This document shows positions 8,651 to 14,321 of a stretch of DNA of 59,119 nt, one piece after another. Both the position numbers and the translations under genes were made by a program. The stretch is from an uncultured Clostridia bacterium (GTDB lineage: Bacteria > Bacillota_I > Bacilli_A > RF39 > UBA660). The DNA lies in NCBI GenBank assembly GCA_945871105.1, contig CAMBUO010000001.1, forward strand, positions 1 to 59,119, in the 5' to 3' direction. The notes beneath the pieces are model-generated. The model made no database searches, was not told where the DNA came from, and saw nothing but the letters and a program-made list of their open reading frames with translations. The stretch's first letter is position 1, and each line of letters starts with the position of its first letter.

Positions 8651-10318
8651 ATGAAAAAATCTAAAATGTTTTTAATGTGTACTTTATTAATGATTCCAAC
8701 AATGGTTTTAGCTAGTTCAGAAAATGATATTTTTTCTATTGGTTCAGCTTTAGGAGTAGAAGCATTTGTTTCTATTCATATGTCTGTTATGGTGCTTATT
8801 CCCTTATCAAGATTAATTTCTCAAGATAATAGTAAAAAAGTTTTTTGGATTTTATTTATATCAAGAGCAGCTATATTGTTATTCTTTGACTTTTTTATAA
8901 CTACTTATATTGCAATAGTTGATTTTTTAGCTGTATTTATCGGAGCTTTATTAATTCTTCCTATATTATCTGGTATCAAGGAACGAAATACTTTTCAAGG
9001 TAAAAATACAAGTAATAATAATCTTGTAACTCCTTCAGTTATTAATAATGAAACAACTTTAAAATGTTTAAAATGTGGGGAAACTTTAAAAGAAGATGAT
9101 AAATTTTGTCCTAACTGTGGTGCAGATGTAGCTTCCAATACTGTTATTTCTAATAAGCCAAAAGAAATAGTTAATTATTCTAACTTTGATTCTATTTATG
9201 CTAATTCAGAAGATCAGTTATTAGAGATTTTTATAAAAAAAGAACTTACTAAATTAGGAATAGAAAATAATAATTTAATACCAAGAGATGTTTTAAAAAG
9301 AAAAAATATTTTAAATATAATTTTTTCTATCTTATTATTTGTTTTTATATCTTTAATTTTCTTTCACTTTCCTATTTATACTTATATTATAGGTTTAATT
9401 ATTTTATTTATCTTTTTTAAACTTACTAGAAAATATGATTTTCTTAAATATTTAAAAAAAGAGATAAAGTCAAGACCTAATGAAAAAATTTCTAATATAG
9501 TTATGAATGTTAAAAATTCTTTAGTAACTGATAAAAAAATAATTAGAATAGTTTTTATACTTATTGCTATTATTTTACCTTTAATTATTTTTGTTAATCC
9601 AAGAATCCTATATGAAAAAGTTGATGATGGTTATGCTGTTAGATTTTATGCTTTTGGATTAACTAATTTTAAAACAGCTACTATACCAGAAACATATAAA
9701 GGAGAAAAAGTTGTTAGTTTAAGGGGAAATACTTTTTCTAATATGCCTTTTTTAGAAGAAGTTGAATTACCAAATAGTATTATTGAAATAAGAGGTCAAG
9801 CTTTTAAAAATGATAAAAAATTAATTAAAGTTAATATTCCAAGTAACTTAGAATATTTAGGAGGGGGAGCTTTTTATAACTGTAAATCCATTATTAATAT
9901 TATTCTTCCTAATACTTTAAATTATATGGGTGGAGAAGTATTTTATGGAGCATCATCTTTGGAATATATTAAGTTATCTAAGAATTTATCTGAAATTAGA
10001 GGAAATTCTTTTGAAAACTGTACTTCATTAAAAAGTATTATAATACCTGATAAAGTAATAAGAATAGGTGGACATGCTTTTTATGGCGATGAAAGTTTAT
10101 CGGAAGTTATTATATCTAAAAATAGTAAGTTAGAAGAAATAGGATCATCTGCATTTAGAAAATGTTATAGTTTAAATGAAATAACCATTCCTAAAGATAC
10201 CATTGTAAATGAAAGATCATTTAAAGAAAGCCCAACTTCAGTGTATCGATATGGAGAAAATTATAATAATACTTATAATAATTCATATTTCAATTCAGAT
10301 TATTATTATAGCAATTAG
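8651..10318 (+). CDS. Membrane protein with zinc ribbon and C-terminal LRR_5 repeats
   Basis: 555 residues. N-terminal hydrophobic segment with an A-S-S boundary (residues 1-22) resembles a signal peptide; more membrane segments follow to about residue 105. A zinc ribbon (CLKCGETLKEDDKFCPNCG, near 139-157) is followed by a linker, a hydrophobic pair near 217-255 and another near 297-318. BspA-type LRR repeats then run from about 340 to 525 (IPSNLEYLGGGAFYNC, IPDKVIRIGGHAFYGD). The C-terminal tail is Tyr/Asn-rich (YNNTYNNSYFNSDYYYSN). The cysteine-rich part should face the cytoplasm. It starts a co-directional cluster 11 bp upstream of the radical SAM gene, so it may be its partner or substrate. 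Function unknown. Confidence 0.7.
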   Translation: MKKSKMFLMCTLLMIPTMVLASSENDIFSIGSALGVEAFVSIHMSVMVLIPLSRLISQDNSKKVFWILFISRAAILLFFDFFITTYIAIVDFLAVFIGALLILPILSGIKERNTFQGKNTSNNNLVTPSVINNETTLKCLKCGETLKEDDKFCPNCGADVASNTVISNKPKEIVNYSNFDSIYANSEDQLLEIFIKKELTKLGIENNNLIPRDVLKRKNILNIIFSILLFVFISLIFFHFPIYTYIIGLIILFIFFKLTRKYDFLKYLKKEIKSRPNEKISNIVMNVKNSLVTDKKIIRIVFILIAIILPLIIFVNPRILYEKVDDGYAVRFYAFGLTNFKTATIPETYKGEKVVSLRGNTFSNMPFLEEVELPNSIIEIRGQAFKNDKKLIKVNIPSNLEYLGGGAFYNCKSIINIILPNTLNYMGGEVFYGASSLEYIKLSKNLSEIRGNSFENCTSLKSIIIPDKVIRIGGHAFYGDESLSEVIISKNSKLEEIGSSAFRKCYSLNEITIPKDTIVNERSFKESPTSVYRYGENYNNTYNNSYFNSDYYYSN

Positions 10319-10329
10319 AGAGGTTTTAT

Positions 10330-12078
10330 ATGAATTATAAATATATACATTTACTATATGTTCCAACTATGGCTTGTAATATGGCTTGTAAATATTGTTA
10401 TTTAGAAGATAATACCAAAGATGATTTTAAAAATTATCATGCTTTAGAAACTTTAGATTATGCTATTAAAAAGTTTAAAGATTTTAATATAATTCCTTTT
10501 AACATATCCTTACATGGTGGGGAAGTAACAACACTTTCTCATGATGATTTTTATGATTTAATTAAATATATTAATGATTACTATGATCTTAATAAAGAGA
10601 TGATTAGTAATGCTGGTTTTAAAGTAGGTAAACCTCATATAAAGACAAATATGTATGATTTAGATAAACATATTGATACTATTAAAGAATTTAATGTTTC
10701 TATTTCGGGAAGTTTAGATTTACCTTTATCTTTACATAATGAATATCGTGTTACCAAAGGAAATAAACAAACACTTGCAAAAATATTAAAAAATATTGAA
10801 TTACTAAAAGATATTCCTAATAAGAAAAAAGTATCCGCGACAATCTTTAAAGAGCATTATAATCATCTAGAAGAAATTATAGAAGATATTAAATATTTAC
10901 ATAAAAATACTTGTTTAGATATGAATGATTTTAATTTTATGGTTGGCTTTGATTATGATTCTAAGGGAATATTACATCATATGACAGAACAAGAACAAGT
11001 TAATTTTTACAAAAGAATGCATCAAGAGTTTGATGGAAGCGATTTAGAAAATGGTGTTAATGGTCCATGGTTTGATGAGTTTGGACCAGATTATTGCTCT
11101 AATTGTGATAATTGTGGCGAAAAGTTTTTCTTATTAGAAAAAAATGGAGATATTTATTCCTGTGTAAGAGGGCAAAAACATCAAGATTATTACTATGGTA
11201 ATATTTATAAGAATAGTGTTAAAGAAATACTTACTACAGCTTATCAGAAAATATTTATTAATCATAACAAATTACCTTTAAATGAAGAGTGTACTAAATG
11301 TGGTTATTTATATTTATGCAAAACCGGATGTCCTTTTGTTAAAAATAATTATAATTCAAATAAAAGTTATACTTGTTTATTGCAACAACAAATGTATAAA
11401 GATCGAAACTATCAAAAAGATGAATATAATGATGAGTTTGTCTATCAATATGTCAATAAGATGAGAATAGAAGATTCTAGTAGATACATACCAACTAAAA
11501 CCTTAAATAATGAATATCCAACTTTAGAAGAAATTATTAAAACAGATAACAAGCTTAAATATATCTATGATACTAATTCTTTTATTTTAAAAATAGATAA
11601 TATAGAATATAAATTAGAATCTCAAATAACCAAGAAAACACGTGATGTAATTTATATTACCCCCAAAAGTTCTCTTAAAATATATATGAAAAAAGAATTA
11701 ATAAATGAAATATGTGATTATCCTGAGAATAATTCACTTTATATTATGATTCTTAGTGGTAATTTAGTAACTTATGGCGACGAACATAGAACCAAACAAA
11801 GACATATTGTCACTCATCAGATTTATAAAGGCGTATTAGATCATATAACAAGTGATAAAGATGAATTTTATATGTATGATATATCTAATTTAATTAAAGA
11901 GTATAAACAAGAATATTCTCTTGATAATCCCAATAATATCTTTTTTACAACCTCAACTTTAAGAGATTATCATTATGTTAAACAAAAGAATAATGCTTAT
12001 TATCATATTCAAGCTATTAATTTACCGTTTCAAAATATTGAATTTTATTATATAGATAAGGAGTTAAAAAATGAATAA
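10330..12078 (+). CDS. Radical SAM/SPASM protein, putative peptide or protein maturase
   Basis: 582 residues. The radical SAM cluster CxxxCxxC is at Cys16, Cys20 and Cys23 (MACNMACKYCYLED), followed by LHGGEVT (residues 62-68), the usual SAM-binding glycine-rich segment. A SPASM-type auxiliary iron-sulphur region follows: CSNCDNCGEKFFLL near 256-270, then SCVRGQ near 277 and CTKCGYLYLCKTGCPF near 320-335. About 190 C-terminal residues show no recognised domain. Such enzymes install carbon-carbon, thioether or epimerised centres in ribosomally made peptides. The gene starts 11 bp after the LRR/zinc-ribbon gene and its last 8 bp overlap the next gene, so the three are translationally coupled. 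Subfamily not identified. Confidence 0.85.
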   Translation: MNYKYIHLLYVPTMACNMACKYCYLEDNTKDDFKNYHALETLDYAIKKFKDFNIIPFNISLHGGEVTTLSHDDFYDLIKYINDYYDLNKEMISNAGFKVGKPHIKTNMYDLDKHIDTIKEFNVSISGSLDLPLSLHNEYRVTKGNKQTLAKILKNIELLKDIPNKKKVSATIFKEHYNHLEEIIEDIKYLHKNTCLDMNDFNFMVGFDYDSKGILHHMTEQEQVNFYKRMHQEFDGSDLENGVNGPWFDEFGPDYCSNCDNCGEKFFLLEKNGDIYSCVRGQKHQDYYYGNIYKNSVKEILTTAYQKIFINHNKLPLNEECTKCGYLYLCKTGCPFVKNNYNSNKSYTCLLQQQMYKDRNYQKDEYNDEFVYQYVNKMRIEDSSRYIPTKTLNNEYPTLEEIIKTDNKLKYIYDTNSFILKIDNIEYKLESQITKKTRDVIYITPKSSLKIYMKKELINEICDYPENNSLYIMILSGNLVTYGDEHRTKQRHIVTHQIYKGVLDHITSDKDEFYMYDISNLIKEYKQEYSLDNPNNIFFTTSTLRDYHYVKQKNNAYYHIQAINLPFQNIEFYYIDKELKNE

Positions 12079-12433
12079 AGAACCAGAAACATATGAAGAA
12101 TTAATTAGAAAAAAAAGATGTATAGATTTAACTAAATATTATCAATTAACTAAAGATGAATTAGAACAAATTTATAATTTTTTACTATATGATCCCAAAG
12201 GAACAGTAAAAGGAACTAAGGTTACTATTTCTTTAATACCAGGAAATAATGCTAATCCTATGGCTATTAATACTATGTGTGTTGATTCATCAATTGATGG
12301 TATAATTATGGATAATCAATATTTTAAAATTATTCCGCATTATACTCCATCTTCTGGTGGCGGTTACAGTGGCGGATCATCTTCTAATAATAACAATAAT
12401 AATAACAACAATAATAATAATAATAATCGATAA
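12071..12433 (+). CDS. Small protein with Gly/Ser and poly-Asn tail, candidate radical SAM substrate
   Basis: 120 residues; its ATG overlaps the end of the radical SAM gene by 8 bp. Residues 1-92 form an acidic/basic globular-looking region with two cysteines (RCIDLTK; TMCVDS). Residues 93-105 are Gly/Ser-rich with a Tyr (SSGGGYSGGSSS), then 14 consecutive Asn and a final Arg. No signal peptide. Gly/Ser/Asn-rich C-termini are common in substrates of peptide maturases, and the overlap with the radical SAM gene supports that role, but no known precursor motif is recognised. The (AAY)14 tract at 12386-12427 is a trinucleotide microsatellite that can change length without shifting frame. Confidence 0.6.
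   Translation: MNKEPETYEELIRKKRCIDLTKYYQLTKDELEQIYNFLLYDPKGTVKGTKVTISLIPGNNANPMAINTMCVDSSIDGIIMDNQYFKIIPHYTPSSGGGYSGGSSSNNNNNNNNNNNNNNR
12386..12427 (+). repeat. (AAT/AAC)14 trinucleotide tract coding poly-Asn
   Basis: Fourteen consecutive AAY codons, eleven AAT and three AAC, immediately before the last sense codon. Confidence 0.9.
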
Positions 12434-12444
12434 GGAGTTAAGTT

Positions 12445-13464
12445 ATGCCATTAGTTTCCGATAATTTTCATCAAGATAAATTAAAAAAATATAATATAAA
12501 TATTAAAACTAAATATATTGTTGACAATAAAATATTAGAAAGAAATACAGATATTAATAAAATTAATGATGATATCAAAAAGGGAATAAGATGCCAAAAA
12601 GAATACTTTATTAAAGATAAATTAGTTCATACAGAAAATATTTTTGATACAAGAATAGAGTATACTTTTATTTCAAAAAGTTTAGAAAATAAAGATTATC
12701 AATGTCCTAATTGTGGAATGACTTCTAAATTAAAAGATTTTCTTGATGGTTGTCCTTATTGTAAAACCTATTATAATATTGATTATATAGAAAAAGATTT
12801 AGGTAGTAAATATCACTATGATTTGATATTACAAAATACAACGTATCGAATAGTAACAGCTTTTATAGATTTACTAATTAGTTTATTATTAGCCTTTTTC
12901 TTTATTAAATTCACTTCAAGAACTTTTAATAATTATGATATTACCAAAGTATTTATTTATGGGATAGTTTTAGCTTTAATATTATATTATTTCTTCTATG
13001 TTATTGATGGTTATATTGTTTTAGGACCAATTAAAAAATATAAAGATAGAGAAAATCAAAAACAAATTGCTTTTTGGGAAAGAACGAAAATCGATAAAAA
13101 ATCTTTCTTTAATAATTTAAATTATGAGATTAGAAAAAAATATTATAGTCAAGAAAATATTATTGATTATGATATTATTGATTATCTTAATTTGGAAGAA
13201 TATACTAAGGATAATCATTTATTTGTTAGAGTAAAAGCAAGTGTTAGAATTGTTTATTATAATAATGGTAAGATAGTTTCTAAGCTAGTTGAAGATAATT
13301 ATTTATTAAAAAGAATTAATGAGAAAACACTTAAATTAAATAGTGAAGTTAATATCATTAAATGTCATAATTGTGGGGCATCTATTGATGCTACTAAAGG
13401 TAAATGTGACTATTGTCATAGTGAAATTAAATATTTACAAGAATGGATTATGGTTGAAGACTAA
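12445..13464 (+). CDS. Membrane protein with two zinc ribbons
   Basis: 339 residues. A first zinc ribbon (CPNCGMTSKLKDFLDGCPYC, near residues 90-109) precedes two closely spaced transmembrane segments (about 133-156 and 168-192). A polar domain of ~110 residues follows (beta-rich VRVKASVRIVYYNNGKIVSK), then a second zinc ribbon (CHNCGASIDATKGKCDYCHS, near 309-328). The last ~120 residues recall Tim44-like domains joined to a zinc ribbon, a weak resemblance. No signal peptide, so both ribbons probably face the cytoplasm. Starts 11 bp after the poly-Asn gene and ends at a terminator; last gene of the radical SAM cluster. Role unknown; the zinc ribbons parallel that of the first gene. Confidence 0.65.
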   Translation: MPLVSDNFHQDKLKKYNINIKTKYIVDNKILERNTDINKINDDIKKGIRCQKEYFIKDKLVHTENIFDTRIEYTFISKSLENKDYQCPNCGMTSKLKDFLDGCPYCKTYYNIDYIEKDLGSKYHYDLILQNTTYRIVTAFIDLLISLLLAFFFIKFTSRTFNNYDITKVFIYGIVLALILYYFFYVIDGYIVLGPIKKYKDRENQKQIAFWERTKIDKKSFFNNLNYEIRKKYYSQENIIDYDIIDYLNLEEYTKDNHLFVRVKASVRIVYYNNGKIVSKLVEDNYLLKRINEKTLKLNSEVNIIKCHNCGASIDATKGKCDYCHSEIKYLQEWIMVED

Positions 13465-13474
13465 AAGAATAATT

Positions 13475-13501
13475 AAGGAAACTAACGGGCTAGTTTCTTT
13501 T
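13475..13501 (+). terminator. Intrinsic terminator ending the radical SAM cluster
   Basis: GAAACTA (13478-13484) pairs with TAGTTTC (13491-13497), extended by A/T pairs and followed by T-rich sequence. Confidence 0.7.
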
Positions 13502-13571
13502 AATTTAAGTGTATTTTTAGTTACAAAAAAATAACTTGCTATAATAAAAGATAAATCATTAAGGAGATGTT

Positions 13572-14321
13572 ATGAAATTAAATTTTTTAGGTAGAGGAGC
13601 AGCTTTTAATCCAAAAGAAGGTAATACTTCCGCTTATTTTACTATTGATAATCAATTATTTTTAATTGATTGTGGGGAAAGTGTTTTTGCAAAGTTAATG
13701 GAATTAGATTTATTAAATAATATGGAAACAATTAATTTGATGATAACACATACTCATTCTGATCATGTAGGTAGTCTAGGTAGTTTAGTTATGTATGCTT
13801 ATTATCAGTTACATATATCATTAAATATTATTTTACCTGAAAAAGCTAAATATTTAGAAAATATTAAAGATCTTTTAAAGATATTTGGATGTACTAAAGA
13901 AATGTATAATTTTGTAAGGGAAAAGGAATTTGATGAAAAGTATGAAGAATTTCAAAATATAAGGTATATAGAAACAAGTCATTGTGATGAATTAGCTTCT
14001 TATGGATTATTGTTTAATACAAAAGAGGGAATTATTTATTATTCAGGAGATACTAAAGATTTAAATGTAATTAAAACATTAATTAATAGTGAAAACAAAA
14101 TTAGTAGTATGTATATTGATACAACAACGGCTAATTATCCTGGTAACGTGCATTTATATATTGGTTTACTAGCTGAAATAATTCCTAATAATTTAAAAGA
14201 AAAAGTTTATTGCATGCATCTTAATAATGATGAATGTATTTTAAGGGCTAAAGAACTAGGATTTAATGTGGTTGAAATGCAAGAAGAAAAGAGAATATCT
14301 TTAAATAAAAATGTTAAGTAA
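13572..14321 (+). CDS. Metallo-beta-lactamase-fold hydrolase (RNase Z-like)
   Basis: 249 residues. The metal-binding motif HTHSDH lies near residues 60-65 (MITHTHSDHVGSLG). The N-terminal beta segment (KLNFLGRGAAFNP...GNTSAYF), the aspartate in LIDCGES near 38, a later His (ETSHCDE near 138) and a GDT motif (YYSGDTKD near 158) fit the RNase Z/phosphodiesterase branch of the superfamily. It is shorter than tRNase Z (about 300), so the substrate is unclear. Own RBS (AAGGAG), separated from the upstream cluster by a terminator. Confidence 0.8.
   Translation: MKLNFLGRGAAFNPKEGNTSAYFTIDNQLFLIDCGESVFAKLMELDLLNNMETINLMITHTHSDHVGSLGSLVMYAYYQLHISLNIILPEKAKYLENIKDLLKIFGCTKEMYNFVREKEFDEKYEEFQNIRYIETSHCDELASYGLLFNTKEGIIYYSGDTKDLNVIKTLINSENKISSMYIDTTTANYPGNVHLYIGLLAEIIPNNLKEKVYCMHLNNDECILRAKELGFNVVEMQEEKRISLNKNVK

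Follow-up and report, generated by a model that had tools for sequence, protein, structure and literature searches.

Two groups of described radical SAM enzymes with a SPASM domain stand close to the enzyme reported here. The first, the anaerobic sulfatase maturases (anSME; TIGR03942, PDB 4k36-4k39), shares with it the radical SAM and SPASM domains and all eight auxiliary-cluster cysteines, and their structures match its first 361 residues (Z 27, rmsd 3.4-3.8 over 326-332 residues). Unlike anSME, our enzyme has Asp277 replaced, scores 89 against the family cut-off of 349, and carries an extra C-terminal domain of 177 residues. The second group comprises the SPASM maturases of RiPPs (SuiB, CteB, DynA, PapB, AmcB), whose fold is related over the same 361 residues and which also have a small adjacent partner with a likely core at its C-terminus. 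In contrast to those systems, the tail of the partner is an Asn homopolymer without Cys, Trp or other residues of the known classes, no exporter or protease accompanies the pair, the C-terminal domain of the enzyme is new, and phage members of the family adjoin tail fibres. An identical full-length architecture occurs in the Campylobacter phage family phrog_1802, which is labelled as a radical SAM domain-containing protein; the pairing with an Asn-ended fibre is not part of that label.

To our knowledge, no described radical SAM system uses an Asn homopolymer as its substrate, and none modifies the tail fibre of a phage. A literature search yielded no paper on a radical SAM enzyme with a poly-Asn or Asn-rich precursor, and none on a tail fibre modified by such an enzyme. 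Maturases of the radical SAM type with small partners are a known kind of system; what appears to be new is the substrate, the additional domain and the role in phages.

Organization of the locus

The locus lies in a 59,119-nucleotide stretch of DNA (the window) and consists of four genes on the forward strand. Gene 1 (8651-10318, 555 aa) encodes a membrane protein with a zinc ribbon and a C-terminal BspA-type leucine-rich repeat (LRR) region (Pfam LRR_5, 6.5e-44, and Zn_Ribbon_1), whose end is family-specific (GSSAFR...VNERAFKESPT). Gene 2 (10330-12078, 582 aa) encodes the radical SAM/SPASM enzyme (Radical_SAM 2.8e-12, SPASM 9.9e-7). Gene 3 (12071-12433, 120 aa) encodes the candidate substrate, here called the tail protein, which had no real match in Pfam; its candidate modification site is a stretch of 14 Asn codons of mixed AAT and AAC type (12386-12427). 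Gene 4 (12445-13464, 339 aa) encodes a membrane protein with two zinc ribbons, for which Pfam gave weak zinc-ribbon matches at both CxxC pairs. A gap of 11 bp separates genes 1 and 2, gene 3 starts 8 bp inside the 3' end of the enzyme gene, and another 11 bp precede gene 4.

The order, gaps, overlap and common direction of the four genes agree with the initial annotation of this DNA, as judged from the ORF coordinates, and so do the domains and motifs it had listed, including SGGGYSGGSSS and the 14 Asn of the 120-aa protein. The terminator that it placed at the end of the cluster was not recovered by a terminator scan of 13465-13510. What follows gene 4 is a weak, AT-rich hairpin (GAAACTA/TAGTTTC, ~13479-13497) and then TTTT. 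The first gene past the cluster (13572-14321) encodes a protein of the metallo-beta-lactamase fold, with a weak match to the family of the anti-Pycsar protein Apyc1 (38.8 bits, cut-off 50).

The radical SAM/SPASM enzyme

The enzyme was modelled with AlphaFold2 at a pLDDT of 91.7. Its CxxxCxxC motif occupies residues 16-23, the barrel extends to ~250, the SPASM region spans 251-358 and the C-terminal domain 406-582. Eleven cysteines are invariant in 21 of 21 aligned rows, phage enzymes included: C16, C20, C23, C256, C262, C278, C321, C324, C330, C334 and C349. Among these, C256, C262, C278 and C334 align with anSME C255, C261, C276 and C330, and C321, C324, C330 and C349 with anSME C317, C320, C326 and C348, sets that we take to be the AuxI and AuxII ligands; we likewise take anSME D277, which follows the third AuxI cysteine, to be the catalytic base. 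By alignment, the enzyme has what marks a SPASM radical SAM protein, namely CxxxCxxC and the cysteines for two auxiliary 4Fe-4S clusters. The position of D277 is held by Val279 in the window enzyme and by His in the phage enzymes.

None of the NCBIfam maturase models reached its cut-off, the best being TIGR03942 at 89.1 bits against 349. The analysis upheld the view that the 120-aa protein and the enzyme are a pair resembling a maturase and its substrate, outside these families. We rejected the enzyme's identity as a sulfatase maturase: the catalytic Asp is missing, the partner is not a sulfatase and the TIGR03942 cut-off is not reached. The Asn tails of the gut loci contain no Cys and no aromatic residue. 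A sactipeptide or ranthipeptide maturase, which needs a core Cys, was discarded on the first of these grounds, and a cyclophane-forming (triceptide) maturase on the second, Tyr or Phe occurring in the phage tails only after the Asn. A defence-system reading was also dropped, as all it had was a weak match to a viperin-like barrel.

The C-terminal domain is beta-rich and has ~33 nearly invariant residues, mostly polar. Those that are invariant in the phage enzymes as well include N468, Y482, E485, R487, K489, H492, T540, T541, R545, H548, Y549, K551, N555, Y558 and H559. Searched alone, the domain had no sequence match in the PDB, Pfam or PHROGs. Together with the cluster ligands, its conserved residues suggest a conserved substrate site. 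All 11 invariant cysteines align as cluster ligands, and no spare one is left as a hydrogen donor. For this reason we favour a net oxidation as the probable reaction, the chemistry being a guess, over an epimerization of the EpeE type, a candidate whose structure matched with a Z of 14.

Distribution and gene neighbourhood

When 84,980 species genomes were scanned, relatives of the enzyme were found in 80 loci at 49-80% identity, full length in the aligned rows and with the C-terminal domain included. The hosts of close relatives are Bacilli, Clostridia, Bacteroidales and Eggerthellaceae, with GC contents from 23 to 65%. Of 98 related genomes, six encode a closely homologous enzyme (62-78% identity besides the window's own); the tail protein occurs in exactly the same six and gene 4 in five of them. 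Among 392 sampled Bacillota genomes the window's own was the only one with a match at E ≤ 1e-60, so that the system is sporadic. In a quick, provisional tree the Bacteroidota enzymes are nested within those of Bacillota, which suggests transfer.

Clustering of the neighbouring genes returned four recurrent genes only: those for the enzyme, the LRR protein, the tail protein and gene 4. The LRR gene is present in 69 of the 80 loci and gene 4 in 41, a count to be read with the fact that many contigs stop short of it. In four Bacteroidales loci (L057, L059, L066, L069) a nucleotidyltransferase-like gene stands upstream in place of the LRR gene; three of these keep the tail protein, and in L059 the contig ends too soon. 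The conserved core is the enzyme plus the tail protein, and the proposal that these genes are true neighbours stands, since the pairing recurs in related loci. No peptidase, leader-removal or export gene recurs among the neighbours of the 80 loci.

It had been suggested that the LRR protein, with its Tyr/Asn-rich tail, could be an alternative substrate. Most homologues lack this tail, and the four Bacteroidales loci named above have the enzyme but no LRR gene, which speaks against the suggestion. Reading the sequence by eye with the positive-inside rule, we infer that the LRR region is external to the membrane and the zinc ribbon internal. In gene 4 both zinc ribbons are invariant (Cys 87, 90, 103, 106 and 307, 310, 321, 324); the idea that its product is Tim44-like was dropped, having no support in Pfam. 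The LRR and gene 4 proteins are frequent accessories and probably serve as partners that bring the modified protein to the membrane or use it there. In one Oscillospiraceae locus (L067, 4558-6413), the LRR gene is adjoined upstream by genes for a zinc-ribbon Ser/Thr kinase-like protein and a PP2C-like phosphatase, 2 bp apart, a pair that hints at phosphorylation-based regulation.

The Asn run of the tail protein

The tail protein is made of an N-terminal domain (residues 1-90), a Ser/Gly linker and a C-terminal N14-R. Seven of the 80 loci were left out of the frame count because the contig ends too soon. In 72 of the remaining 73, which reach the tail region, a C-terminal Asn run lies in frame directly downstream of the enzyme; two of these (L033, L036) are in frame if UGA is taken to be a sense codon and two (L069, L085) on direct reading. 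The run is out of frame in the one remaining locus (L045), and in frame in a nearly identical locus of the same genome (L046). Of the 80 loci, 68 were positive in a strict search for a C-terminal Asn run. The 59 complete runs have 5-20 Asn, with a mean of 13.4, and the last residue of the tail is R, N, H, G, S or A.

What the initial annotation had missed is that conservation in this small protein lies in the Asn run, the remainder diverging. Across the family, the ~90-residue N-terminal domain has diverged (41% average conservation, against 92% for the Asn columns 106-118) and the linker varies in length and make-up, with the run staying in place. In the structural model the N-terminal domain is confidently folded, and the C-terminus has a pLDDT of ~55-69. 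A likeness of the N-terminal domain to sliding clamps (best Z 4.2, matching halves only) was not trusted, and a search of the domain against viral models gave nothing below E 0.001.

None of the ~1,007 other genes of these loci has a run of 7 or more Asn, three genes listed with such runs being tail proteins that had not been clustered. In the 1.24-Mb genome of the window, 10 consecutive Asn codons occur nowhere but in the tail gene, and the same holds for an Eggerthellaceae genome, for GAM79 and for two more Bacillota; these five genomes span two phyla, and the four beyond the window are a small sample. Another carrier had no match to 10 Asn codons, its contig ending within the run. In relatives, mixed-codon poly-Asn linkers are also found in unrelated secreted or membrane proteins, at other positions.

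The codons of the run are scrambled. AAC makes up 42% of the Asn codons in the tail and 23% in the enzyme gene; the figures are 36% against 12% in an AT-rich set and 55% against 71% in an AAC-rich set. The longest run of a single codon in the tail averages 3.0, where codon use predicts 7.3 and shuffled codons give 4.0. On the evidence of this mixture of AAT and AAC, selection acts on the protein and not on a DNA repeat; the pattern is the one to be expected if the protein sequence is selected for and slippage of the DNA against.

The two loci with UGA codons come from uncultured genomes, and their enzymes are ~72% identical to that of the window (L033, CAMVNA010000010.1, 8001-9719; L036, CAMOEC010000020.1, 8001-9725). 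The enzyme gene has 5 in-frame UGA codons in L033 and 11 in L036, and all 16 fall where relatives most commonly have glycine. Each genome carries a 74-nt tRNA with the anticodon UCA, labelled SeC by ARAGORN. UGA seems to be read as glycine in these genomes. In bacteria, this reading has been described only in Absconditabacteria and Gracilibacteria (PMC8629427).

Pairing in Campylobacter prophages

Also absent from the initial annotation is that prophages pair the same enzyme family with Asn-ended tail fibres. In a PHROG search, phrog_1802 matched residues 11-581 of the enzyme (E 4.9e-42). A 585-aa homologue (34.9% identity over 98%) is encoded by Campylobacter phage CAM-P21, the sole full-length relative returned from the phage collection, and by a C. 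coli plasmid or prophage. In these Mu-like prophages its gene sits between a tail-fibre gene and a sheath gene, the fibre being a Pfam Phage_tail_fib protein. All fibre genes that adjoin the enzyme are Asn-ended (NNNNY, GNNF, GNNS or NNNNN); the runs are short, with 2-5 Asn, often followed by Tyr or Phe.

For comparison, prophages were collected by the N-terminus of the fibre alone, which is at least 87% identical across the set. All 7 enzyme-bearing prophages have fibres ending in NNNNY or GNNF, and none of the 18 that have a complete fibre but in which no enzyme was seen does so, 14 of these 18 having more than 3 kb of downstream sequence (Fisher p 2e-6, a value that overstates independence given the close relationship of the prophages). 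The types of fibre end are 10-27% identical to one another and have the Asn end as their only common feature. In nearly all 18 enzyme-less prophages a 164-170-aa gene follows the fibre, with DUF4376 in one that was tested.

The place of this gene is taken, in the enzyme-bearing prophages, by a gene for a 211-aa protein with no Pfam match (L258, 4351-4986), always between the Asn-ended fibre and the radical SAM gene; the protein is not related to the leader domain of the gut loci, a kinship that we had considered. In at least two prophages (L278, 5965-7757; L268, 5968-7757) the enzyme frame is broken and the fibres still end in GNNF or GNNS. The virulent Campylobacter phages CP220 and CPt10 encode eleven or twelve radical SAM proteins (PMC2853527).

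Discussion

We consider it quite probable that the protein described here is a peptide-modifying radical SAM/SPASM enzyme and that its substrate is the Asn run at the very C-terminus of its partner. Enzyme and partner are strictly paired, the Asn run is under selection, the cluster ligands are intact, and a second, independent pairing exists in phages. We infer that the Asn residues are chemically changed by the enzyme.

According to this model, the partner in gut bacteria would be the small product of gene 3, which is translated from an overlapping gene immediately after the enzyme. The folded domain at its N-terminus would serve as a handle, and the Ser/Gly linker with 8-20 Asn as the tail to be modified. 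The enzyme would bind the partner and thread its flexible C-terminus into the radical site, where the Asn residues would be altered one after another, the conserved polar C-terminal domain presumably gripping the tail. In the prophages, the enzyme would act on the fibre ends NNNNY, GNNF and NNNNN. As in RiPP systems, nearly every locus has a small candidate precursor next to the enzyme (in frame in 72 of 73); unlike in those systems, leader-removal or export genes are absent from the cluster. The product would remain attached to the protein, which is probably used whole, given that the genes come with neither a peptidase nor an exporter and that cleavage is unnecessary for a fibre end.

A different target within the same protein is conceivable, if rather unlikely. 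The enzyme might modify Ser, Thr, Gly (or Tyr) of the linker, in a formylglycine-type or ether-forming reaction, with the Asn run as a recognition tag only. The nearest solved relative is, after all, an anaerobic sulfatase maturase, and Ser, Gly or Thr precede the Asn in a motif common to the gut and phage settings, so that these residues could be the modified ones. However, the replacement of the catalytic Asp of anSME in both settings argues against this chemistry, and the linkers vary in length and make-up whereas the Asn remain.

A little less likely again is that the tail protein acts with the enzyme as its partner or as a subunit that binds the leader, the sticky, disordered Asn run serving to guide the enzyme to some other target, for instance the LRR or zinc-ribbon protein. 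Strict adjacency would fit a subunit too, the N-terminal domain is confidently folded, and the LRR gene and gene 4 are frequent neighbours. Yet enzyme and tail protein persist where both of these genes are absent, the phage version has no such protein but just an Asn end on the fibre, and the Asn run is much more conserved than the would-be binding domain. Finally, a neutral, slippage-prone codon repeat without function, for which the Asn-rich linkers in AT-rich genomes of the group might speak, can be regarded as already refuted by the scrambled codons, the recurrence of the run in hosts of 23-65% GC, its absence from the ~1,007 neighbouring genes, and the Asn ends that unrelated phage fibres have only when the enzyme is present.

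Returning to modification of the Asn run itself, we lean, with some reserve, towards a broader proposal: that these enzymes form a new class of radical SAM modification, acting repeatedly on homopolymeric C-terminal Asn tails, both in gut bacteria of at least three phyla, through a dedicated small protein, and on the fibre ends of Campylobacter prophages, where it may affect the hosts or surfaces that are bound. The Campylobacter prophages and a complete gut genome allow this to be tested directly. If the proposal is true, it would add a chemistry on Asn and an uncharacterised modification of proteins that is widespread in the animal gut and extends to GAM79, a cultured Lachnospiraceae strain, and it would give phages a new means to tune their fibres.
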